From contig JAHYJR010000007.1 in NCBI GenBank assembly GCA_019429005.1, forward strand, positions 1-53,762: DNA of 53,762 bases, written 5' to 3'. Shown here one piece after another: positions 5,723 through 53,762 of this stretch. The first letter of the stretch is position 1; each line of letters begins with the position of its first letter. Source of the stretch: Nanobdellati archaeon. Its GTDB lineage: Archaea > EX4484-52 > GLR71. The notes beneath the pieces were generated by a model. The model ran no database searches and was not told the DNA's origin. It saw only the letters and a program-made list of their open reading frames with translations. The position numbers were made by a program, and so were the translations under genes.

Positions 5723-5930
5723 TAATCACTTTTTATTTTAAGCATTTTAATTCTATTTTAGACAATATTTAACATTTTTATTTGATCATATATCATATTC
5801 TCAAAAAAAAGGACATTTAATTTCAAATACAAGCGTTTTAAGACCTTTAAATTAGATATTTTAAACTTCTTTTTAATACCAAACCTATATTATTTAATTT
5901 ATTTGTTACTATTATATACTAAATTATAGA

Positions 5931-5942
5931 AAACTTTATAAA
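5931..5942 (+). promoter_or_regulatory. TATA box for the small gene at 6007
   Basis: AAACTTTATAAA preceded by purine-rich AGA is a good archaeal BRE/TATA match and predicts initiation near 5965, about 40 nt before the ATG at 6007. Confidence 0.5.
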
Positions 5943-6006
5943 CAGAAGAAGTTAATATAATTTTACTAACTAAGAGTAACAATTAAATATGATTTATGGT
6001 GATTTT

Positions 6007-6204
6007 ATGGAAGTTGATCAGGTAAAAACAATGATGCGTTTGGCTAAAGAATCGGGTAACTTAAGAGATCTTGAGAGACTTGAAAAGATTATGAAATTTC
6101 AAACACCTAATTTCAGGTATCCTGAAAAAAGAAGAAGATCTCTATTTGGAAATAATTTCTGGGAAACAGCAATTAAAAACAACAGAATTACACCAAGAGA
6201 TTAA
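6007..6204 (+). CDS. Small basic hypothetical protein (65 aa)
   Basis: Not recognised. An N-terminal helix (MEVDQVKTMMRLAKESG) is followed by a charged helix and a basic C-terminal half with an RRRS cluster and aromatic residues. The ATG at 6007 has GGTGA 4 nt upstream and so is preferred over an in-frame ATG at 5989. A TATA box lies at 5931-5942. It precedes another tiny gene (6304) that has its own ribosome-binding box, so both are probably expressed. DNA or RNA binding is only a guess from charge. Confidence 0.65.
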   Translation: MEVDQVKTMMRLAKESGNLRDLERLEKIMKFQTPNFRYPEKRRRSLFGNNFWETAIKNNRITPRD

Positions 6205-7675: not shown

Positions 7676-9310
7676 TTAGTGATCAATTAATTTTTTCTCT
7701 TCATAACTCTCTTTAGCAAGATCATCACGAACTCTCTCAAGAACAATATCATCCTCAGGTGGTTTTTTATTATCTTTTATCTTATCACCTTTTAAAGTCG
7801 CTTTAACAACATCATCTTTAATTATAGAATTTTTAACAGACTTGTCACCTTTAGGCTCTTTAAGTTCACCTGCATCTTTAAGTTCCTTAAGTTTCTTTCC
7901 AAGCACAAATATGAAACGTTTTGTATCTTCCTTAATCTCATAAATTTCACGCTCAGGAACCATCTCGGCTTGACCTTTCTTTGCAACAACCATAGCTTTT
8001 GCAATCTTTTCAAAAACAAATTCATGTTGTTCTTTAAGATCTGGGAATGTACTTGCCATCACTTTTGGAAGATCTTTAAGTTTCTCAGGTGGTTTTATAC
8101 CTTTAAGTTCAAGAGCACCAACATTTGCTCTCAAAAAAGTCTTATAAGTATCAAGCAGAATACTTGATTTTTTCTTTTGTTCAAGAACTTTCAAAAGCTC
8201 AACCATACGCTTAACAAACTGATCACAAATCTCTATATGTTCATCAACCTTAACACCAAGCCCTTTCAAATTTGCTTCATCATCATCATGTTCCATCTCT
8301 TTTGCAAATTTATGGATTTTATCTGCATAATCAACATATTTCTGCTCAAGAAGTTTCTGTTCAACAAAATAATGTTTTAATTGTTTTGATGTCGCTTCTT
8401 TTCCAGCTGGAATCTTTCCAATAAACATCAAAGGTGCCTGACCTGCTGCAGCCATTGCCTGTTCAAGGTAATGTGCGGCAGATTTCACTCTATATTGAGC
8501 CATCTTAAGATGTTGTGGTGCTATATGAATTCTTTTTGATACAGCTTCCATAGTGGTTGGAAGTTTACCTCGCTGAAGCATCCTTTTTGCAGGCATAAAT
8601 ACACCCACATCAAACACAGGAATACCATTCCGTAATACAACCATAACAAGGGGTTCTACACTCCGTATAGACTCCCAGAATTCAGTTAAAAACATAAATG
8701 CTTGTATTGTAATATTTTTATCAATTTTAGCTGCAATCTTTCTAAGATCAGCCCAAATACGATCTTTTACTTCTGCAGGAATATCATTTTCTAACTTTGT
8801 ATCATCAATAATAACAAAAGTGTCTATATCACTTGTCTCCTTATGATCCCCTCGTGCAGTAGAACCATAAACAACAACAGCTTTCAATGATTTCTTAAAC
8901 TCTTTTGCAAGTTCCTTAGCATATTTCTGTGCAATTTCAAACCTAAGCCTTTGACTTTCCTCTGTTGTTAATATTTTCTTATTTGTATCATCTTTTGTAT
9001 CTGATTTTACATCATCTTTTGTATCTGATTTTACATCATCTTTTGTATCTGATTTTACATCATCTTTTGTATCTGATTTTACATCATCTTTTGTATCTGA
9101 TTTTACATCATCTTTTATATCTGATTTTACATCATCTTTTGTATCTGATTTTACATCATCTTTTATATCTGATTTTACATCATCTTTTGTATCTGATTTT
9201 ACATCATCTTTTATATCTGATTTTACATCCTCTTTAGATACATCATCCGAAACAGAACTCTCTTTTTTATTATCTTTAACAACTGCTTTGGAATGGTCTT
9301 TTTCAGTCAT
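7676..9310 (-). CDS. Nucleotidyltransferase-domain protein with 8-aa acidic repeats
   Basis: A 544-aa protein in three parts. Residues about 25-110 contain roughly ten tandem copies of DDVKSD(T/I)K, a highly charged and certainly disordered linker. Next comes a minimal nucleotidyltransferase fold (VVVYGSTARGDHKETSDIDTF): the GS...D-x-D pattern of the pol-beta superfamily, with both metal-binding Asp present. The C-terminal half is helical and Lys-rich. The ATG at 9310 is chosen because GTGA sits 5 nt upstream; an in-frame ATT at 9319 is not needed. The substrate is unknown. Such proteins can be tRNA- or protein-modifying enzymes or MNT-type antitoxins, but no toxin partner is adjacent. Confidence 0.75.
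   Translation of the reverse strand: MTEKDHSKAVVKDNKKESSVSDDVSKEDVKSDIKDDVKSDTKDDVKSDIKDDVKSDTKDDVKSDIKDDVKSDTKDDVKSDTKDDVKSDTKDDVKSDTKDDVKSDTKDDTNKKILTTEESQRLRFEIAQKYAKELAKEFKKSLKAVVVYGSTARGDHKETSDIDTFVIIDDTKLENDIPAEVKDRIWADLRKIAAKIDKNITIQAFMFLTEFWESIRSVEPLVMVVLRNGIPVFDVGVFMPAKRMLQRGKLPTTMEAVSKRIHIAPQHLKMAQYRVKSAAHYLEQAMAAAGQAPLMFIGKIPAGKEATSKQLKHYFVEQKLLEQKYVDYADKIHKFAKEMEHDDDEANLKGLGVKVDEHIEICDQFVKRMVELLKVLEQKKKSSILLDTYKTFLRANVGALELKGIKPPEKLKDLPKVMASTFPDLKEQHEFVFEKIAKAMVVAKKGQAEMVPEREIYEIKEDTKRFIFVLGKKLKELKDAGELKEPKGDKSVKNSIIKDDVVKATLKGDKIKDNKKPPEDDIVLERVRDDLAKESYEEKKLIDH
8990..9231 (-). repeat. 24-bp coding tandem repeat
   Basis: About ten 24-bp units encode DDVKSD(T/I)K in the nucleotidyltransferase-like protein. 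Units are nearly identical at DNA level, the Thr/Ile alternation being one base, so the array is recent and likely variable in copy number without breaking the frame. Confidence 0.95.
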
Positions 9311-9364
9311 AGGAATCACTTAGATATTTATTAAATTTGAACGTTATATATAATTAACGATTTA

Positions 9365-44083: not shown

Positions 44084-44656
44084 ATGGATGAAACAATAAA
44101 AAATCTGGCAAGAGCGTTCATTGGCGAGAGTCAAGCAAGGAACAGATACACAATGTATGCAAAAATTGCAAAAAAAGAAGGTTTTGAACAGATTGGAGAC
44201 ATATTTCTTCTGACAGCTGACAATGAAAGAGAACACGCAAACGGACTCATGAAATTGATTCAAGTATTGAAAGAAAAATCTGAAAATAAAGATGAAATTA
44301 TTGTTGATTCTGAAGTACCTACAACCATATCAACAACTGAAGAAAATCTTAAAGCTGCAATTAACGGTGAAAATTTTGAGCATGAAACAATGTATCCAAA
44401 ATTTGCAGACATTGCCGAGAAAGAAGGTTTTGATGATATCGCAGTACAACTTAGAGCAATTGCAAATGCTGAAAAACATCATGAAAAACAATATATAAGC
44501 CTTCTAAAAGAACTTCAAGAAAAAAAAGTTTTCAAAAAAAATAAAGAAGTTGAATGGGTATGTCTAAACTGTGGTTATACACACACAAGTGAATCAGCAC
44601 CAAAAATCTGTCCCTCATGTTACCATAGCACCGCATATTTTCAGGTAAACAAATGA
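44084..44656 (+). CDS. rbr: Rubrerythrin
   Basis: 190 aa peroxide-reducing di-iron protein. Ferritin-like domain (1-140) with iron ligands in FIGESQARNRY, DNEREHANG, EHETMYPKFADIAE and NAEKHHEKQY. The C-terminal rubredoxin-like domain has WVCLNCGYTH and ICPSCYHS. Suggests an anaerobe or microaerobe coping with oxidative stress. ATG at 44084 with GGTGT 4 nt upstream. Confidence 0.96.
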   Translation: MDETIKNLARAFIGESQARNRYTMYAKIAKKEGFEQIGDIFLLTADNEREHANGLMKLIQVLKEKSENKDEIIVDSEVPTTISTTEENLKAAINGENFEHETMYPKFADIAEKEGFDDIAVQLRAIANAEKHHEKQYISLLKELQEKKVFKKNKEVEWVCLNCGYTHTSESAPKICPSCYHSTAYFQVNK

Positions 44657-44748
44657 AAATATTAAATAAAAACATCTCTATTTTTAATAATTAAGACATA
44701 AAAATATATACTTTAAACGCTATATTATAAGTATTAAAGGTGTATTAT

Positions 44749-44802
44749 ATGAAAATAGAAGTTATTGAAAAGATTGTTTTAATACTACATCTAGTTCTAT
44801 GA
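44749..44802 (+). CDS. Possible 17-aa micro-ORF
   Basis: An ATG with AAAGGTGT 5 nt upstream and a TATA-like AAAAATATATACTTTA (about 44700-44715) opens a 17-codon frame of hydrophobic residues. It may be a micropeptide or the remains of a gene. The rest of 44657-44957 shows only a 12-bp palindrome CCTTTATAAAGG (44887-44898). Confidence 0.3.
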   Translation: MKIEVIEKIVLILHLVL

Positions 44803-44957
44803 AAACCCTAAATATATCTTTGTTTTAATATATATAAGCTTAATTACAGCTTCTTTTAAGAATTGCCCAGTCATCTAAAATAAAATCCTTTATAAAGGTA
44901 GGACTAAATTAATAATTATATTTTGTTCTATAAACATATTCTTATTAATTAAACCCT

Positions 44958-45560
44958 TCACAACCGCCCAATCTTCCCCGCATCAGTCAATCTAAGCCCA
45001 CCATCAGTTGTGATAAACCCAGAATCGCGAAGGTCATCAATGTTCCTATAAAACATAGCCCTAGAAAGCCCGCATTTCTCACTCATCTCAGCCAAAGATA
45101 TATTATCAGGTGACGAAGAAATCACATCCAAAACAGTCTTCTGACTTTCTGTAAACTTAAATGACATCTTTGGAAGATACACTACAGAACTTTTATCTTC
45201 TTCAGGATTATAAGCAATCTTACTAACACGAGAACTACGCGCATATGCAGCAAACAAAAGTCCAAGTGCCTTAGTCTTCCGACCTGCAGTGATGTTCACA
45301 AATATCTCATCATCTTTAGGCTGAAGATCAATTATCTCCACACATTTACGGGCAACAGACACAATATCATACACATCTGTACGGACCTCCTTAACATCCA
45401 CCACACGCCCTAGAGAATTCTTGATAAGATCAAAATTCTGTTGCTGAGTCTTATCAGGTTTATCATCCATAAGCAATATCAGCCTATTAGGTCCAAGCTG
45501 TGTAGCTGCCACAAGCACAGGATCTGGAGAATATATTGTTGCTATAAGAACTTTAGCCAT
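44958..45560 (-). CDS. Csa3-like CARF-HTH transcription regulator
   Basis: 200 aa. The N-terminal Rossmann-like CARF domain (1-125) opens KVLIATIYSPDPVLVAATQL and contains the ligand-site strand FVNITAGRKTKALGLLFAAY. The C-terminal winged HTH (about 135-200) includes LAEMSEKCGLSRAMFYRNID. Csa3 proteins sense cyclic oligoadenylate or related ligands and control CRISPR-Cas genes in Crenarchaeota. No cas gene or array is present here; the divergent neighbour is a double-AAA+ ATPase. The gene looks richer in G+C than its surroundings, hinting at transfer. A perfect 12-bp palindrome lies between the two divergent genes. Confidence 0.75.
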   Translation of the reverse strand: MAKVLIATIYSPDPVLVAATQLGPNRLILLMDDKPDKTQQQNFDLIKNSLGRVVDVKEVRTDVYDIVSVARKCVEIIDLQPKDDEIFVNITAGRKTKALGLLFAAYARSSRVSKIAYNPEEDKSSVVYLPKMSFKFTESQKTVLDVISSSPDNISLAEMSEKCGLSRAMFYRNIDDLRDSGFITTDGGLRLTDAGKIGRL

Positions 45561-45593
45561 GATATATATTACACATTTATACTTTATATGTAT

Positions 45594-45605
45594 TTTGTAT
45601 ACAAA
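45594..45605. promoter_or_regulatory. Palindrome in the divergent CARF-regulator/AAA+ promoter
   Basis: TTTGTATACAAA is a perfect 12-bp palindrome 34 bp upstream of the CARF-HTH start and about 65 bp upstream of the AAA+ start. Position and symmetry fit an operator for the dimeric regulator. Confidence 0.45.
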
Positions 45606-45669
45606 CCAATAGACAAATATATAAAATTATACACGAATATTATATTTAATACAATTAATGGTGATTATT

Positions 45670-47136
45670 ATTGAAGCGAATATGGCTGAATTTGTTAACA
45701 TACAAGAGAACGATATCAAAACAATAAAATACCTATTGAACTATTTCAAAAAAGATAACGATTCAACTTTACTAAGCAAAAGCTACCTATTCTTTGGAAC
45801 TCCAGGTATTGGAAAAACAACACTTGTAAAAGACATCATAACTTCAATGAATGAAGATATAATCTATATGGCATGGAGACAACTTAATCTGAAAAATGCA
45901 ACAAAAGTAGACACTTTTGAAAAATTAAATGAACTTGCAAACAACAACAAAAAACAAATCATATTCATTGATGACATAAACATATTACTTGAAAAAAATG
46001 AATTTGATGTCATAATTCCAAAACATCAAAAATCAATAATGGAACTTCTTGATAATGTAAAAGAAAATGCAAATAAAGTCTTACTAATGACATCAAACAA
46101 TATTGACTTTTTTGAGATGCCAATACTTGATAGGATAGAGATTACCATCAATTTTGACTTGCCTTCAGAAAAAAATAAACTTAACTTCATAAATTCTAAA
46201 TATTCAAAATACATAACACCTGAAAACATATCATTCATAATCAAAAATTCAATTGGTTATAATTACAGAGATCTCTCAGAAATGATAAAATTTTCTTGGC
46301 GCATAAACGATAAAAAAATAACAAACAAATCGTTGAAAAGAGCATTACATACATGCAAACCAAAAGGTCTTCATACTTTTGATATACATCATCAGATTGA
46401 TACAAACCTAAAAGACATAATTGGCAAAGATAAGGCAGTACAGCTTGTAAACAGATTATCATTGCTTCAAAAAAATGAAAAGCTTAAGCAAAACCTAGGC
46501 ATAAGAAGAAACAACTTAATTCTTTTCCACGGTCCGCCTGGCACAGGAAAAACATTCATGGTTAAAGCGATCTCAGGCGAACTTAAAATCCCTATAATAA
46601 ACATAAGCACAAAAGAGATTTTAGGTGGAAATGTATACCGTACACTTGACATAATAGCAGAGATTGCAAAGACACACAAAGATTACATAATATTCATAGA
46701 TGAGGCTGACAAGATAATGGGTGGCAATATGTTTGATGAAGATAATTCACTAGTAGGTTCATTCCAAGCAGTTCTTGACAACATAGACAGCAAAGAGATA
46801 CAAGCACTATTGATATTGTCTGTCAACAACCCTAAACGTTTCGGCAAAGCATTCAGGGATAGATTTGTAAACATACCGTTCCTATTGCCAAACTTTGAAG
46901 AGAGACTGATCTTTTTAGAGAACAAAATTAAAACTGCAAAGGCTCACATCAAACTGGATATTGAGAGTTCGTACATTGCAGAAGAAACTGAAAACATGTC
47001 TTACAGAGACATGGACCGTATCTGGAACGACCTGATGTTCTATGCTCTTGAGAACGATGAACCTATAACTAATGATACCTTTGATGAGATAATGGGTGCG
47101 TCTAAGAAAAAGATTGTAAATTGTATTGTTGATTAA
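45670..47136 (+). CDS. Double AAA+ ATPase, likely ATT start
   Basis: About 488 aa. AAA-1: Walker A GTPGIGKT (43-50), Walker B IIFIDDIN, with Asn in the sensor position (MTSNN) and a degenerate end. AAA-2: Walker A GPPGTGKT (288-295), Walker B IIFIDEAD, sensor LSVNN and arginine finger FRDRF, so ring 2 looks fully active. No N-terminal substrate domain of CDC48 type is present. Box GGTGA (45660-45664) places the start at ATT 45670; ATG 45658 overlaps the box and ATG 45682 lacks one. It may remodel a protein or nucleoprotein under control of the CARF regulator. Ends 11 bp before the next ATPase gene. Confidence 0.8.
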   Translation: MEANMAEFVNIQENDIKTIKYLLNYFKKDNDSTLLSKSYLFFGTPGIGKTTLVKDIITSMNEDIIYMAWRQLNLKNATKVDTFEKLNELANNNKKQIIFIDDINILLEKNEFDVIIPKHQKSIMELLDNVKENANKVLLMTSNNIDFFEMPILDRIEITINFDLPSEKNKLNFINSKYSKYITPENISFIIKNSIGYNYRDLSEMIKFSWRINDKKITNKSLKRALHTCKPKGLHTFDIHHQIDTNLKDIIGKDKAVQLVNRLSLLQKNEKLKQNLGIRRNNLILFHGPPGTGKTFMVKAISGELKIPIINISTKEILGGNVYRTLDIIAEIAKTHKDYIIFIDEADKIMGGNMFDEDNSLVGSFQAVLDNIDSKEIQALLILSVNNPKRFGKAFRDRFVNIPFLLPNFEERLIFLENKIKTAKAHIKLDIESSYIAEETENMSYRDMDRIWNDLMFYALENDEPITNDTFDEIMGASKKKIVNCIVD

Positions 47137-47147
47137 TGGTGTTAAAT

Positions 47148-47771
47148 ATGAAATTTAAAAAAATAACAATAAAAAATTATAAACTATTTAATGATGCTAC
47201 AATTACCTTTAATGACAATTTAACTGTTATTGTTGGTAATAATGGTTCTGGAAAAACCATACTTTTTAATTTACTTAAAAATTATAAAAATACATCAAAA
47301 GACTATTCAATAGATATTGACGGAACTATACCAACAGAAGAAACATATGGTTTTATATCTGAAAACCGTTTATCACAAACGGATCTTTTACAAGAATTTG
47401 ATGAAACTAATGAACTCTTTATGAATGAAATACAACAATTAATTCCACAAATTACAACAGATTTAAAATCACACAAAAAAACATTTAATCAATTAAAAGA
47501 AACCTTTGCCGTTGGTGAAAAAATACTATTTGATTTTGCTAAAATTTTTACATTAAGACAAATAAATAATACCCAGTTCCCTATTGTTTTAGATTCACTT
47601 TTTAGTATTTTAAGTAAAGATAAATCAGAATTATTACTAAAAAGATTACTTAATTTAAACGAACAAGTGATTATTATTGAAAATGAACATTCATTACCAG
47701 ATGGATTAAGTATGAATTATAAATTGAACTATAAAGATGAAAAAACGAATATTGAACAGATTCATAATTAA
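47148..47771 (+). CDS. Compact SMC/DndD-like ABC ATPase
   Basis: 207 aa. Walker A GNNGSGKT (30-37) in an SMC/Rad50/RecF-type N-terminus (KKITIKNYKLFNDATITF), a degenerate signature FAVGEK (120-125) and Walker B FPIVLD (144-149) followed by Ser as in VLDSPF-type ATPases of the DndD/AAA_23 group. The long coiled coil is replaced by about 70 residues, so it is a head-only enzyme. ATG 47148 with GGTGT 5 nt upstream, probably co-transcribed with the AAA+ gene. No nuclease domain. Small ATPases of this kind are common in defence loci. Confidence 0.7.
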   Translation: MKFKKITIKNYKLFNDATITFNDNLTVIVGNNGSGKTILFNLLKNYKNTSKDYSIDIDGTIPTEETYGFISENRLSQTDLLQEFDETNELFMNEIQQLIPQITTDLKSHKKTFNQLKETFAVGEKILFDFAKIFTLRQINNTQFPIVLDSLFSILSKDKSELLLKRLLNLNEQVIIIENEHSLPDGLSMNYKLNYKDEKTNIEQIHN

Positions 47772-47860
47772 TGACGAGTTAACTAAGTTTGAATACAAAA
47801 TATATAAAATGTTTAAATGCATCAAAAACTAATAAATTAAATTATATAAAAAAACGAAAT

Positions 47861-47917
47861 AATGTACACATAAAACGTTACAATGACCTAAATGTGAATT
47901 TAGATAACAAGGGATAA
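47861..47917 (+). pseudogene. R1: decayed copy of the helicase N-terminus
   Basis: The frame at 47861 reads NVHIKRYNDLNVNLDNKG then TAA, two nt before the RhuM ATG. The SNF2 helicase begins MNIDNVRTKLGDDLKVNIDSKS. Residues N-V, K, D-L, V-N, D and K coincide without gaps, and the DNA shares ATAATGT and ATGACCTAAA at the same offset. The start codon is lost. Confidence 0.65.
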
Positions 47918-47919
47918 AG

Positions 47920-48942
47920 ATGACTATTAAAAAAATCACCCCAAAAGATAAAACTACAGAATTCTTACTCTATAATTCACCTGATGGAAAAATAAAAGTA
48001 GAAGTCTTTTTGCATAATGAAAATATCTGGCTCACTCAAAAACGAATAGCAGAATTATTTGATGTGACAATCCCTACTATTAATGAACATTTAAAAAACA
48101 TTTTTAATTCAAATGAATTAGACGAAATTTCAGTTATTAGGAATTACCTAACAACTGCTAATGATGGGAAAAAATATGCTACTAATTTCTACAATCTTGA
48201 TGCAATAATTGCAATAGGGTACAGAGTAAATTCAAAAAAAGCAACTCAATTTAGAATCTGGGCAACTAAAATCCTGAAAGAATACATGCTCAAAGGATTT
48301 GCAATGGATGATGAACGACTCAAAAATGGGAAATATTTTGATAAAGATTATTTTGATGAGCTTTTGGAACGAATTAGGTCCATAAGGTCAAGTGAAAGAA
48401 GAATCTATCAAAAGATAACAGATATTTTTGCAGAATGTAGTATTGATTATGATAAAGATTCCATGATTACAAGAAACTTTTATGCAACAATCCAAAATAA
48501 ATTCCACTATGCGATATCTGGAAAAACTGCAGCAGAAATAATATACAAAAAAGCAGATGCAAAAAAACAAAATATGGGTCTGTCAACATGGAAAAATGCG
48601 CCCACAAGTAGGATTTTGAAATCAGATACAATAATTGCTAAAAATTATCTGTCTGAAGAAAATATTAAAAAATTAGAACGAACGATTTCAAGCTTTTTTG
48701 ATTATATTGAAAGGATCATTGAAAATAGAACTACAATGGTTATGAGTGATTTGGCAAAAAGTGTGAACAACTTTTTAGAATTTCATGAATTCAAACTATT
48801 AGATGGAAAAGGAAAAAGATCTTATAAACAAGCTGAAGATAAAGCGTTTAAAGAATATGATCTATTTAACAAGACCCAAAAAATAGAATCTGATTTTGAC
48901 AAACTGACTAAGAAATTAAACCAAAAAATTGAAGATATCTGA
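47920..48942 (+). CDS. RhuM family protein
   Basis: 340 aa. WLTQKRIAELFDVTIPTINEHLKNIF is the N-terminal HTH-like motif of RhuM (COG3943), followed by the diagnostic NFYNLDAIIAIGYRVNSKKATQFRIWATKILKEYMLKGFAMDDERL and a helical C-terminus. RhuM proteins are frequent passengers in restriction-modification and other defence loci; the biochemical role is not established. ATG at 47920 has AAGGGATAAAG upstream. Its TGA is one nt from the micro-ORF R2. Flanked on both sides by helicase-start copies. Confidence 0.92.
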   Translation: MTIKKITPKDKTTEFLLYNSPDGKIKVEVFLHNENIWLTQKRIAELFDVTIPTINEHLKNIFNSNELDEISVIRNYLTTANDGKKYATNFYNLDAIIAIGYRVNSKKATQFRIWATKILKEYMLKGFAMDDERLKNGKYFDKDYFDELLERIRSIRSSERRIYQKITDIFAECSIDYDKDSMITRNFYATIQNKFHYAISGKTAAEIIYKKADAKKQNMGLSTWKNAPTSRILKSDTIIAKNYLSEENIKKLERTISSFFDYIERIIENRTTMVMSDLAKSVNNFLEFHEFKLLDGKGKRSYKQAEDKAFKEYDLFNKTQKIESDFDKLTKKLNQKIEDI

Positions 48943-48943
48943 G

Positions 48944-49033
48944 ATGAACATAAATTATGTACACACAAAGTTGAACAAAGACTTAAATGTAAAAGTACTT
49001 GAAAAACCAAATACAATTGTGAAGGTTATTTAA
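48944..49033 (+). CDS. R2: 29-aa micro-ORF, truncated duplicate of the helicase N-terminus
   Basis: An intact ATG-to-TAA frame whose peptide begins MNINYVHTKLNKDLNVKV, against MNIDNVRTKLGDDLKVNI for the helicase. The first 53 bp are about 75% identical with no gap. It starts 1 nt after the RhuM TGA and stops 1 nt before the DinD ATG, so it could be translated by coupling. Either a remnant of the helicase gene left by insertion, or a retained coupling peptide. Confidence 0.7.
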   Translation: MNINYVHTKLNKDLNVKVLEKPNTIVKVI

Positions 49034-49034
49034 T

Positions 49035-49877
49035 ATGGAAAAAAATATAATCACAAAACTCACTAAAACATTTGAAGATTATATTCATATAGAAGACAGA
49101 ATCGAATTTTGGTTTGCAAGAGATTTACAAACACTTTTAGGTTATTCTAAATGGGAAAATTTTGTAAAAATTATAGAAAAAGCAAAAATTTCTTGTAAAA
49201 AGGCAGGACAAGAAGTAAACAATCATTTTCCTGACGTCAAGAAAACGATAAACATGCCAAAAGGTGCAACAAGAAATATTGACGATTATATACTAACAAG
49301 ATATGCCTGTTACCTTATTGCTCAAAATGGAGATTCAAGAAAAGATGAAATTGCATTTGCACAAAGTTATTTTGCAATACAGACAAGAAAACAAGAATTA
49401 ATTGAAGAAAGGATTGCATTAAAAGAACGCGTTGATGCAAGAGAAAAATTAGTGAAATCTGAAACAGAACTTTCAAAATTAATTTATGAACACGGTGTAG
49501 ATAATAAAGGTTTTGCAAGAATTAGAAGCAAAGGTGATCACGCTTTATTTGGTGGACATAACACAAAACAAATGAAAATAAAACTAAATATCCCACAAAA
49601 TAAACCAGTTGCGGATTTTCTTCCAACAGTTACAATTGCAGCTAAAAACTTTGCAACAGAAATAACAAATTTTAATGTTAAAAAAGAAGATTTGCAAGGC
49701 GAATCTAAAATTACAAATGAACACATAAAAAACAATAAACGAATTAGAACTGTACTTCTAGAAGATGATATTATTCCTGAAGAGTTGCCTCCTGAAGATG
49801 ATATTAAAAAGCTAGAAAGAAGAATTAAAAAGGATGAAAATACACTAGCTAAAGTGTCAAAGACGCTGTTAAAATAA
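49035..49877 (+). CDS. DinD-like DNA-damage-inducible protein
   Basis: 280 aa. WFARDLQTLLGYSKWENFVKIIEKAKISCKKAG is the Bro-N/antirepressor-like N-terminal domain. HFPDVKKTI, ILTRYACYLIAQNGDSRKDEIAFAQSYFAIQTRKQELIEER and NKGFARIRSKGDHALFGG are diagnostic of DinD. In E. coli DinD modulates RecA and is damage-induced; homologues often sit inside defence or R-M islands. The C-terminus is acidic, then coiled. Preceded by R2 and followed by a short gap holding a weaker copy, R4. Confidence 0.9.
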   Translation: MEKNIITKLTKTFEDYIHIEDRIEFWFARDLQTLLGYSKWENFVKIIEKAKISCKKAGQEVNNHFPDVKKTINMPKGATRNIDDYILTRYACYLIAQNGDSRKDEIAFAQSYFAIQTRKQELIEERIALKERVDAREKLVKSETELSKLIYEHGVDNKGFARIRSKGDHALFGGHNTKQMKIKLNIPQNKPVADFLPTVTIAAKNFATEITNFNVKKEDLQGESKITNEHIKNNKRIRTVLLEDDIIPEELPPEDDIKKLERRIKKDENTLAKVSKTLLK

Positions 49878-49917
49878 AACAACAATTTCAACTTAGGGTG
49901 AAATGAAAAATTGTTGA

Positions 49918-49962
49918 TTAAACGCTGAGGATTTAAATGTGACAAACACCAATAAATTAAGA
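49918..49962 (+). pseudogene. R4: weak copy of the helicase N-terminal segment
   Basis: The frame here reads LNAEDLNVTNTNK, comparable with KLNKDLNVKV of R2 and YNDLNVNLDNK of R1, with one extra codon. At DNA level only TTAAATGTGA is clearly shared. Flagged because it occupies the expected position between DinD and the next gene. Confidence 0.35.
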
Positions 49963-49987
49963 TATAAAATAAAAAAGATGTTCAATT

Positions 49988-51313
49988 ATGATAAAATTAG
50001 AAAAAACAATGAAATTTTATGATGAAATTAAAAATATGGGGTTTTTTAAAAGATTATTTTCATGGGGTAGTATAATACCTTTACTGACTGAATCCTATTC
50101 TGAAATAACAAAACTTGATGAGATATCAGAAACAAATAATAAGCTTACATCAGATCTCAAAGTTGCAGAAGGAACTATAGAATCATTAACTAATACAATA
50201 AATAAACATGAAATGAAAATATCCAGTTTAGATACTGAGATAAAACATCTGAATCAAGATATCAAGAAAGAAGAATCTGAAGTTGCTAAATTAGAAGAGA
50301 CAAAAGAACAGAACACAGATTTAATATCTAACTTAAAAGCTAATATTAGGACTCTTGAAGATAAAAGAGAGACTTTAACAAAAGAGACTAAAGATTTAAG
50401 CGGTAAAATAAGCCAATTTGAAAAAGTCAAAGAAGAACAACAAAAAAAATACGATGAGACTATTGCAAAACTAGAAAAAAGAGAAGACACTCTTGAAAAG
50501 AGAAGACAAGAACTTGAAGATCAAGAAGTTGGTAAAGAAACACAAAAATTTGAAGAAATGAAAAAAACATGGCGAAATCATGAAATCGCAATTGAACAAT
50601 CAATAAAAAAGATATGCAATAAATATACAATTGATTATTTTGATAAAGAAAAAGTGCCATTCAAAGGTAAACCAGATAACAGCATAAAGATTGCAAACGA
50701 ATTCATCATTTTTGATGCAAAAAGTCCATCAAATGATGATTTAAATAATTTCCCAACATATATCAAAAATCAAGCAATTTCTGTCAAAAAATACATTACA
50801 GAATTAGATGTAAAAAAAGATATTTTTTTAGTCGTACCTACAAACACAATCGATATTTTAGATACAACATTCTATGATATGAGTGATTATAGAGTATATG
50901 TAATAACAATAGATTCTTTAGAACCTATAATACTAAGTCTAAGAAAAATTGAGGATTATGAATTTGCAGAAAAGCTAAGTCCGGAAGACCGAGAATCTAT
51001 ATGTCGTGTTTTAGGTCATTTTGCGCATCACACTAAACGAAGACTCCAGCTTGATACATTTTTAGCTAATGCATCTTTAGACTTGCTTAAAAGTTGTGAA
51101 TACTTGCCTGAAGAAATATTAGATGAAGTAAAAAATCATGAGCTAAAAACAATAATCAATGTCCCTATGGACAAACGTTCTAAAAAGTCCAACTTAGAAA
51201 AACTAATAATTGACACAAAAAGGTTAACTGGTGAAGTTGAGCCTCAAGACATAAATACAAAGCAAACCGCAAAGAAGATTGAGAGTATCGATCTATACAA
51301 CAAAGAAGATTGA
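49988..51313 (+). CDS. Coiled-coil protein with PD-(D/E)XK nuclease core (RmuC-like)
   Basis: 441 aa. Residues 1-30 may be membrane-associated (FFKRLFSWGSIIPLL). A long coiled coil follows (40-200, heptads rich in Glu/Lys/Leu). The nuclease core then shows PD at 229-230, E238 and D243-A-K245 (KPDNSIKIANEFIIFDAKSP), the layout of RmuC and related nucleases. The C-terminal 150 residues are helical. RmuC limits DNA rearrangement in E. coli. Its TGA is 2 nt before the helicase ATG, so the two are translationally coupled and probably form one functional unit. Confidence 0.75.
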   Translation: MIKLEKTMKFYDEIKNMGFFKRLFSWGSIIPLLTESYSEITKLDEISETNNKLTSDLKVAEGTIESLTNTINKHEMKISSLDTEIKHLNQDIKKEESEVAKLEETKEQNTDLISNLKANIRTLEDKRETLTKETKDLSGKISQFEKVKEEQQKKYDETIAKLEKREDTLEKRRQELEDQEVGKETQKFEEMKKTWRNHEIAIEQSIKKICNKYTIDYFDKEKVPFKGKPDNSIKIANEFIIFDAKSPSNDDLNNFPTYIKNQAISVKKYITELDVKKDIFLVVPTNTIDILDTTFYDMSDYRVYVITIDSLEPIILSLRKIEDYEFAEKLSPEDRESICRVLGHFAHHTKRRLQLDTFLANASLDLLKSCEYLPEEILDEVKNHELKTIINVPMDKRSKKSNLEKLIIDTKRLTGEVEPQDINTKQTAKKIESIDLYNKED

Positions 51314-51315
51314 GT

Positions 51316-53762
51316 ATGAACATAGATAATGTGCGCACAAAGTTAGGCGATGACCTAAAAGTAAACATAGACAGCAAATCTAAGATAAAGTTATGCGCTG
51401 CCTATTTTTCAATATATGCCTTTGATGAACTAAAAAAAGAGCTATCAAAGATAAAAGAATTTTCATTTCTATTTAATTCTCCAACCTTTTTTGAAACAAA
51501 TAATAAGGATAAGAAGGAAAAAGAGTTTTTTATACCACCTTTTGTAAGAGAGAGAACTATTGCTGGTGGTGAATTTGAGATAAAATTAAGAAATAGTCTT
51601 AGTCAGAGAGCAATCGCAAGAGAATGTAGAGAATGGATTGAGAAAAAAGGAAAATTCAAAACTTTAAAGCAAAACATAAGAGCTAATAATGGTATATTCA
51701 TTGAAAATAAAGATGATACGATTGCATATACAAATTTTGACAGCTTTACTGCAGACGGTCTTGGATATGAACAAAATAAAGAACTTATAACTCCAATATA
51801 TCCAAAGATGACAGGTGATAATGCAAAACAATTTATAGATCAATTTAATCAAGTCTGGGATAATAAAGACTTTACAAGTGATGTAACTGAAAAAGTAATT
51901 AATTATATTTCATCAGTCCACAAAGAGAACTCTCCAGAGTACCTTTATTTCATAACACTTTATAATATATTTAGTGAATTTTTAGATGATATCAACGAAG
52001 ACAATATCGCAAATGAAAAAACGGGGTTTAAAGACACATTAATCTGGGATATGATGTATAATTTTCAAAAAGATGCAGTTCTTGGTGCAATAAATAAACT
52101 AGAGAGATTTAATGGATGTATTCTTGCAGATGGCGTAGGTCTTGGAAAAACATTTACAGCTTTAGGTATTATTAAATATTATGAGCTTAGAAATAAGCAA
52201 GTTTTAGTTCTGTGTCCAAAAAGATTATCTGAAAATTGGACAAGTTTTAAATCAAATTATACGACAAATTTATTGTTTAAAGATAGATTTAATTATGATG
52301 TCCTTTTTCATACCGATTTATCAAGAGAACGTGGTGAGAGTAACGGTATAGATCTTGAACGGATTAATTGGGGTAATTATGATTTGATTGTAATTGATGA
52401 AAGTCATAATTTTAGGAATAATACTGCAAGAGCTGACCGTGATACACGTTATCAGACATTGATGAAAAAAGTAATTAGATCTGGTGTTAAAACAAAAGTA
52501 TTGATGCTTTCTGCCACACCAGTCAATAATAAATTTTTGGATTTAAAAAATCAACTAGCTTTAGCTTATGAGGGTGATACAGGGAATATTAATGAGTCTC
52601 TAAATATCTCAAAAGATATAGACTCAGTATTTCGTGATGCACAGGCATCATTTAATGCATGGTCTAAACTAGATACAACTGAGCGCACTACACAAAGACT
52701 ATTAGATTCATTAAGTTTTGATTTTTTTGAATTATTAGATTCAGTAACTATTGCTCGTTCAAGAAAACATATACTGAAATATTATGATACAAAAGATATA
52801 GGAAAATTTCCAGTAAAAAATAAACCAATAAATAAAACTTTTGAATTGACAAGTATAGAAAACTTTCTATCATTTAAAGATTTTTTCGATATATTAAGCT
52901 CATTAAATCTTGAAATATATTCACCGTCAAAATGGATTTTACCAGATAGAAAGGCATATTATGAAGCGAAATATGATACTCAGTTAAGTAATAAATCATC
53001 ATTAAAACAATCAACAAGAGAAACAGGAATTATGAAATTGATGAGAGTCAATATCCTTAAACGGTTAGAGAGTAGCATTGAATCATTTAGGATAACTATG
53101 ACTAAATTAAACAACAATATTGAAATGACACTTAAAGCAATTAATAATTTCAATAATGGTGGTTCTGATGAGTTACAAGCTGTTGATTTAAGTAATGTTG
53201 ATGATGAAGATATAGATAATTATGATAATGGATTCAATATAGGTACAAAAATAAAGATAAATCTTAAAGATATGGATGTCTTATCCTGGGAACGAGAGCT
53301 TAAGCAGGATAATAAAATAATTTCAGACTTATTGGTTGAGATTAAAAAAATAACTCCGCAAAAAGATAGTAAATTAGAAAGTCTTATATCTACAATTGAA
53401 GGAAAAATTAATAGTCCTATAAATCCAGATAATAAAAAAGTGATTATATTTTCAGCTTTTGCAGACACAGTACATTATCTATATGAACATATATCTAAAC
53501 ATTTTTTAGAGAAACATAACTTGCATTCTGCATGTGTCAGTGGGACAAAAACAAATAAATCAACATTAGACATAGGTCATAATGATATGAATCGTATTTT
53601 AACATGTTTTTCTCCAATATCAAAAAATAAAGACTTAATTGGACTTAAAATATCCGGAGATATTGATATTTTAATTGCAACAGACTGTATTTCTGAAGGA
53701 CAAAACTTGCAAGATTGTGATTATTTAATTAACTATGACATCCATTGGAATCCAGTTCGCAT
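51316..53762 (+). CDS. SNF2-family helicase with degenerate PLD-like N-terminus (partial)
   Basis: At least 815 aa, open to the right edge. The N-terminal 200 residues resemble the PLD-like domain of defence-associated SNF2 proteins (KLCAAYFSIYAFDELKK; later FDSFTADGLGYEQNKEL corresponding to the usual GSSNFT..GLG..N.EL), but the catalytic His and Lys of the HKD motif are not seen. The helicase core has motif I ADGVGLGKT (near 271-279), motif II IDESH (near 361-365), motif III LSATPVNN (near 398) and, at the edge, motif V/VI ISEGQNLQDCDYLINYD. Relatives travel with DNA methyltransferases and type III-like restriction genes, expected beyond the window. Confidence 0.88.
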   Translation, partial: MNIDNVRTKLGDDLKVNIDSKSKIKLCAAYFSIYAFDELKKELSKIKEFSFLFNSPTFFETNNKDKKEKEFFIPPFVRERTIAGGEFEIKLRNSLSQRAIARECREWIEKKGKFKTLKQNIRANNGIFIENKDDTIAYTNFDSFTADGLGYEQNKELITPIYPKMTGDNAKQFIDQFNQVWDNKDFTSDVTEKVINYISSVHKENSPEYLYFITLYNIFSEFLDDINEDNIANEKTGFKDTLIWDMMYNFQKDAVLGAINKLERFNGCILADGVGLGKTFTALGIIKYYELRNKQVLVLCPKRLSENWTSFKSNYTTNLLFKDRFNYDVLFHTDLSRERGESNGIDLERINWGNYDLIVIDESHNFRNNTARADRDTRYQTLMKKVIRSGVKTKVLMLSATPVNNKFLDLKNQLALAYEGDTGNINESLNISKDIDSVFRDAQASFNAWSKLDTTERTTQRLLDSLSFDFFELLDSVTIARSRKHILKYYDTKDIGKFPVKNKPINKTFELTSIENFLSFKDFFDILSSLNLEIYSPSKWILPDRKAYYEAKYDTQLSNKSSLKQSTRETGIMKLMRVNILKRLESSIESFRITMTKLNNNIEMTLKAINNFNNGGSDELQAVDLSNVDDEDIDNYDNGFNIGTKIKINLKDMDVLSWERELKQDNKIISDLLVEIKKITPQKDSKLESLISTIEGKINSPINPDNKKVIIFSAFADTVHYLYEHISKHFLEKHNLHSACVSGTKTNKSTLDIGHNDMNRILTCFSPISKNKDLIGLKISGDIDILIATDCISEGQNLQDCDYLINYDIHWNPVR

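Follow-up and report, generated by a model that had tools for sequence, protein, structure and literature searches.

A CARF-HTH transcription regulator of a Nanobdellati archaeon probably acts as a CRISPR-independent, ligand-sensing local switch that controls both its own gene and a divergent operon encoding an AAA+ ATPase and defence proteins, a reading to which we assign a probability of about 0.6. The computed features behind it are the genes themselves, the fold, a recurrent gene pairing, a motif conserved in sequence and position, a conserved pocket and the absence of Cas1 and Cas10, and from these we infer DNA binding, a dimeric state, a ligand, a sign of regulation and an activity for the AAA+ protein. 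The DNA analysed (the window) is 53,762 nucleotides long and is a whole contig (JAHYJR010000007.1) of a 1.08-Mb, 15-contig genome that is 93.6% complete; related genomes and loci are given below by G and L numbers.

The regulator, its pocket and the lack of Cas1 and Cas10

The regulator gene (44958-45560, minus strand) is an intact open reading frame for a 200-aa CARF-wHTH transcription regulator of the CARF3 clade. The protein exceeds the cut-offs for Pfam HFX_2341_N (PF19810; 49.3 bits, cut-off 30), Pfam Card1 CARF (29.1 bits, cut-off 24.6) and, just barely, NCBIfam Csa3 (TIGR01884; 66.4 bits, cut-off 60.2), has a Pfam HTH match, and is matched over its full length by PADLOC CARF3 (E 2.7e-66). 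Comparison of its sequence with solved structures yielded nothing beyond weak HTH matches and chance matches to kinesin, so a comparison of folds was needed: the AlphaFold model (pLDDT 93.3) has Csa3 of Sulfolobus (2wte) as its top Foldseek match (E 7.7e-11), and the protein has the order of the CARF-wHTH superfamily, a CARF Rossmann domain followed by a wHTH. The sequence-only reading had called the protein Csa3-like, a description that stands for its CARF-wHTH architecture, its fold and its TIGR01884 match but does not make it a typical Csa3, as Pfam Csa3_N (PF22662) reaches 14.1 bits, below its cut-off of 27, with no match anywhere in the genome, and cA4 motif 1 is missing. The same reading was right that the gene is richer in G+C than its neighbours (0.406, as opposed to 0.311 ± 0.040 for the other genes in the right half of the window).

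Across 27 sequences of the clade, the predicted pocket positions T8, Y10, N89, T91, G93-R94-K95-T96, Y117, P119 and E120 are invariant or nearly so, and the window copy keeps them all. With the cA4-bound Csa3 structure as a reference (PMC8844856), motif 1 (hydrophobic-G-F-N/D-x-x-F) is represented by T8-I9-Y10-S11-P12-D13-P14, which retains only the aromatic position and lacks the glycine and second phenylalanine (Csa3 G9 and F14), and motif 2 (small-x-G-x-R) by T-A-G93-R94-K95, which keeps the glycine and has a lysine at the arginine position (Csa3 R98). A conserved pocket with the motif 2 glycine and an incomplete motif 1 suggests that the protein likely binds some ligand, although cA4 itself is not assured. 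Searches of the window genome with Cas10 and SMODS profiles found no recognised producer of a cyclic nucleotide; its sole match in the SMODS search for a CBASS cyclase was rejected as such a producer because it is a CCA-adding enzyme (tRNA_NucTransf2, E 3e-42), and the only convincing additional SMODS match is in G397. Separately, a nucleotidyltransferase with an HTH and a small neighbour, resembling an MNT-HEPN toxin-antitoxin pair, lies near the CARF-HTH gene in three loci (L052:8829-9377, L061 and L075), and the window encodes at 7676-9319 (minus strand) a protein that by eye is nucleotidyltransferase-like, with nearly identical DVKSDTKDD units in a long N-terminal array.

Profile searches, limited to Cas1 and the Cas10 palm domain, found neither in the window genome, and among 34 genomes with the CARF family or its remnants, 27 are without Cas1 and 32 without Cas10, in agreement with the earlier proposal that the regulator is independent of CRISPR. 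The nearby CRISPR-Cas locus that would speak against this proposal did not appear in the window genome with these profiles, but for L063, one of the related pairs, the contig also encodes Cas1, ~9 kb away. In addition, the gene immediately after CARF-HTH in L062 is Cas6-like, and the more distant G220 has Cas1 and Cas10 on the same contig. These exceptions suggest that the lineage can join CRISPR loci and mostly lives without them.

Such cases bear on the possibility that the regulator is the leftover of a lost CRISPR-Cas locus, decaying or idle after the cas genes were deleted. This would fit with the presence of Cas1 in 7 and Cas10 in 2 of the 34 family genomes, with distant Csa3-like genes (20-25% identical) that in the same order as the window genome lie beside genes resembling Cas6 and Cas1 by eye (L022:3962-6286 and L023:912-3383), and with the breakage of the CARF gene in all three nearest relatives (G020, G018 and G004). 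The window copy, however, is intact, retains every pocket residue and is under purifying selection, as indicated by CARF-HTH copies whose retained coding parts are ~83% identical while their 4-fold sites differ by more than 40%. Pocket and upstream motif are also conserved in phyla without Cas1, and the neighbours are other defence genes rather than cas remnants, so we regard decay after CRISPR loss as unlikely.

Several observations concern the condition of the gene in relatives. The three broken copies are interrupted at different points (L018:2993-3731, L019:2-340 and L021:3620-3676), two of them adjoin SLFN_AlbA_2 genes, and in G020 the joint between the CARF gene and a truncated SLFN_AlbA_2 gene has, by eye, the look of an illegitimate fusion through a short sequence common to both. 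Many orthologs (L050, L054-L057, L059, L063, L065, L069, L070, L073 and L075) are extended in frame at the N terminus by ~18 residues (MENYI...), and the initial codons of this extension resemble a BRE/TATA box. Searches of viral contigs with the CARF and AAA+ proteins gave one distant match each and were uninformative.

The divergent AAA+ gene and the operons led by CARF-HTH

The divergent partner (45658-47136, plus strand; 492 aa, intact) had been described as a two-ring AAA+ protein, and this is borne out by two Walker A motifs (GTPGIGKT and GPPGTGKT) and by its model (pLDDT 82), both rings of which Foldseek aligns with Cdc48/p97. It thus shares with Cdc48/p97 the trait of two tandem AAA rings; unlike Cdc48/p97, it has no N-domain, and the CDC48 family model gives 76 bits against a cut-off of 802.65. 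Its Walker B motifs read IIFIDD in ring 1 and YIIFIDE in ring 2, and because the aspartate-aspartate form, common to the whole double-AAA+ family, is in ring 1, ring 2 may do most of the ATP hydrolysis. The C-terminal ring resembles that of IetA (E 2.9e-24) at 77 bits, below the curated cut-off of 510, but unlike in IetAS there is no IetS subtilase partner detectable by Pfam among the genes at 44084-53760.

Failure of this pair to recur elsewhere had been named as grounds for giving up a link between the two genes. A survey of gene neighbourhoods shows that it does recur: all six double-AAA+ loci with visible flanks, from Nanohaloarchaeota, Woesearchaeota and one uncultured archaeon, are divergent from CARF-HTH or its remnant. 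The regulator is intact in L063, L069 (where the AAA+ gene runs off the contig end) and L075, which come from two Woesearchaeota and one uncultured archaeon; G020 has the same divergent layout, with an AAA+ protein 47% identical to that of the window and a truncated CARF gene, and in G004 the AAA+ gene faces an 18-codon CARF remnant. A double-AAA+ profile run against 394 relatives found only G000, G020 and G004, plus one protein of Cdc48 length that lies at the threshold (E 1e-40). An AAA+ gene of any sort occurs in 10 of ~31 related loci, always upstream and divergent, and is of two kinds, the equivalent position being taken in another six loci by a different AAA+ with a single ring. The AAA+ gene persists in two of the three closest relatives with a broken CARF gene, so it may not need CARF-HTH.

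In public genomes, 29 loci contain a CARF-HTH gene or fragments of one (50-83% identical), in Woese-, Nano-, Pace-, Micr- and Nanohaloarchaeota and one Thermoplasmatota bin, the family's nearest members being from Nanohaloarchaea and a DPANN archaeon. The gene following CARF-HTH is co-directional in 25 of the 31 other intact loci, with a gap of at most 28 bp in 22, and of 40 genes belonging to eight recurrent families, 35 are downstream of the regulator and co-directional with it. These downstream families include UvrD+PDDEXK helicase-nucleases, PDDEXK_1, SLFN_AlbA_2, GmrSD_N, DUF2779, ORF6N and Bro-N/DinD, single loci also carry DUF1016, NucS or McrBC, and several of the genes match PADLOC candidate defence families; the beta-lactamase-fold protein encoded downstream in L051 is an exception, not being a defence protein.

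In the window, the downstream side of the CARF gene is empty and the defence-like genes lie on the AAA+ side, all on the plus strand. A small ABC/RecF-like ATPase (47136-47771; 211 aa), whose start overlaps the AAA+ stop (TAATG), is followed by a RhuM-family protein (47920-48942; Pfam Virulence_RhuM, PADLOC candidate PDC-S05), a DinD-like Bro-N protein (49035-49877; PADLOC PDC-S13) that clusters with genes of CARF-led operons elsewhere, a coiled-coil protein (49988-51313) whose C-terminal part appears RmuC-like by eye, and an SNF2-type helicase (51310-53760) cut by the contig end. A role for the small ATPase (P0003) as a constant partner was rejected, as none of the related loci yielded a homologue. 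The PADLOC candidates beside the pair and the recurrent defence families in related loci substantiate the defence-island setting that had been suggested for it.

A candidate operator between the two genes

The gap between the CARF and AAA+ genes is 97 bp long (15% G+C) and contains, as the sequence-only reading reported, the perfect palindrome TTTGTATACAAA (45594-45605), the only exact copy in the genome, of which 0.02 occurrences would be expected in the window. By itself this is weak evidence, because 18% of shuffles of the gap carry some perfect 12-bp palindrome; it is made notable by a conserved motif that covers it. This motif was found de novo upstream of CARF-HTH orthologs, with the window excluded from training, and reads TAtAatTTTCTAtTAttTAGTAtAaaaT, a 20-bp palindrome. 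Matches on the two strands are offset by 1 or 20-21 bp, as for a 20-bp palindrome repeated at 20 bp, and several loci have a second copy exactly 20 bp, or two helical turns, away.

The motif lies between back-to-back TATA boxes and is largely confined to the regulator's promoter. At 14 bits or more it occurs in 60% of CARF upstream regions and in 2% of 606 other upstream regions, nearly all of the latter belonging to the divergent partner that shares the same gap. In held-out scans, 30 of 33 loci had their best site no more than 200 bp upstream of CARF-HTH, where 0.64 would be expected; L060, one of the failures, has a Bro-N gene inserted before CARF-HTH, and its site is upstream of that gene. 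In G004, which was not used in training and retains only 18 CARF codons, a 15.1-bit match at the AAA+ promoter is the best in a 7-kb contig; in G020 the operator is lost. One bin (bin-0934) has two CARF-HTH paralogs (L055 and L069) on separate contigs, each with its own operator.

The corresponding candidate operator unit in the window is TGTCTATTGGTTTGTATACA (45596-45615, minus strand), which overlaps TTTGTATACAAA and lies between TATA-like elements assigned by sequence reading and archaeal promoter rules, CATATAAAG facing the CARF gene (45582-45590, minus strand) and ATATATAAAA facing the AAA+ gene (45617-45626, plus strand). It is a weak match (core score 10.3; 28-mer score 14.2 bits, equalled or exceeded by 0.4% of shuffled gaps) that ranks second in the window and ninth in the whole genome (E 6), and a second unit 20 bp from it was sought and is absent. 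The earlier suggestion that the palindrome is a control site therefore stands insofar as it falls within the conserved motif, but the unit seems to be the 20-bp palindrome at about 45596-45615 and not the 12-mer alone. A sequence one mismatch from the palindrome, TTTGAATACAAA at 47788 before the RhuM gene, was rejected as a second operator, since the best motif score in that gap is just 8.2 and belongs to another place.

It could be argued that palindrome and motif reflect the layout of divergent core promoters (BRE/TATA) and that the pair are hitchhiking neighbours in a defence island with no regulatory link. The motif is AT-rich, its ends (TTTC/GAAA) coincide with BRE-like elements, and perfect 12-bp palindromes arise readily in the shuffled gaps. 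The TAGTA/TACTA core and the 20-bp palindromic spacing are not core-promoter signals, however, the remaining upstream regions of these loci hardly ever match, and the motif was kept at the G004 AAA+ promoter after the CARF gene was lost, all of which makes this explanation quite improbable.

The genome's strongest operator-like site is elsewhere in the window (5911-5938, minus strand; 23 bits in the window scan, genome E 0.0095), has a TATA-like element and lies upstream of a 71-aa open reading frame (5989-6204, plus strand) without a Pfam match, which makes this a possible distant target of the regulator. A stronger site away from the regulator would suit a housekeeping or global regulator with defence neighbours by coincidence, as would the rank of HFX_2341_N as the best Pfam domain and the finding that haloarchaeal HFX_2341 regulates many genes in species with and without CRISPR (PMC11434293). 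Against this, most of the genomes with a match among 36 scanned show only the regulator's own promoter (promoters from the set that trained the model), and the tight co-directional spacing with recurring defence families points to local control, so we consider a global role very unlikely.

A proposed switch and its relation to known systems

CARF-HTH switches of this kind usually serve CRISPR immunity and, to our knowledge, CARF sensors are understood almost only through the cyclic oligoadenylates made by Cas10. In the local switch that we favour, CARF-HTH, probably as a dimer, would bind the 20-bp palindromic operator, here 45596-45615, and from its place between back-to-back TATA boxes set transcription of the CARF gene and the AAA+ operon; in the majority of related loci CARF-HTH would itself head the operon, with genes of nuclease, restriction or antirepressor-like type behind it. 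A small molecule arising from infection or DNA damage would enter the CARF pocket and alter DNA binding. Relief of repression by the ligand is the preferred sign, as the operator adjoins the BRE/TATA elements or overlaps with them and its ends coincide with BRE-like sequence. Among the induced effectors would be the two-ring AAA+, predicted to be a remodelling machine that resembles Cdc48 but has no N-domain.

Since close relatives of the regulator head a variety of defence operons in archaea with tiny genomes, another alarm molecule may drive the switch. More tentatively, and with the odds somewhat against it, the DPANN CARF-HTH lineage may represent a non-CRISPR second-messenger response of the Csa3 type, which would work without Cas10, sense the ligand of an unknown enzyme and switch on interchangeable defence cassettes, including the two-ring AAA+, through the 20-bp operator.

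Like Csa3a and Csa3b of the Sulfolobales, the regulator has a CARF domain with a C-terminal wHTH, the same fold and a position divergent from its candidate targets. It differs in a genome without Cas1 or Cas10, in scoring below the Csa3_N cut-off, in the absence of G9 and F14 and the lysine in place of R98, and in its candidate targets, which are AAA+ and other defence genes. Csa3a of Sulfolobus is reported to act as an activator and to bind DNA at an imperfect palindrome that immediately precedes the core promoter (PMC4333418). With HFX_2341 of Haloferax the regulator shares the N-terminal Pfam domain and its status as an orphan CARF-HTH-type regulator whose host genomes may be without CRISPR (PMC11434293); HFX_2341 is described as a conserved, vertically inherited global repressor with targets that include nutrient transport (PMC11434293), whereas the window regulator lies in a defence island with a local predicted operator. 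MM_0565 of Methanosarcina mazei is likewise a CARF-wHTH regulator, dimeric, DNA-binding and with a preference for AT-rich DNA, but it belongs to a type I-B CRISPR locus and has no distinct binding motif (PMC7465815).

Orphan CARF genes were already known (PMC4012209), and the full-length match to PADLOC CARF3--CARF (PDLC01849) means that this protein family is already catalogued as CARF, in an entry to which no operator, partner or mechanism is attached. In the literature consulted, the 2020 CARF classification survey excepted, we found no description of the operator, the operon-leading role or the consistent link to a double AAA+. The authors of the Csa3-cA4 study considered Csa3 homologues from organisms without Cas10 or CRISPR to be of high interest for other ligands (PMC8844856), and this lineage is a set of such homologues, with an invariant pocket, 32 of 34 genomes without Cas10, a predicted operator as a read-out and candidate defence targets. 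As DPANN archaea are reported to be poor in CRISPR-Cas and restriction-modification (PMC12988326), the switch would give them a candidate means of inducing defence.
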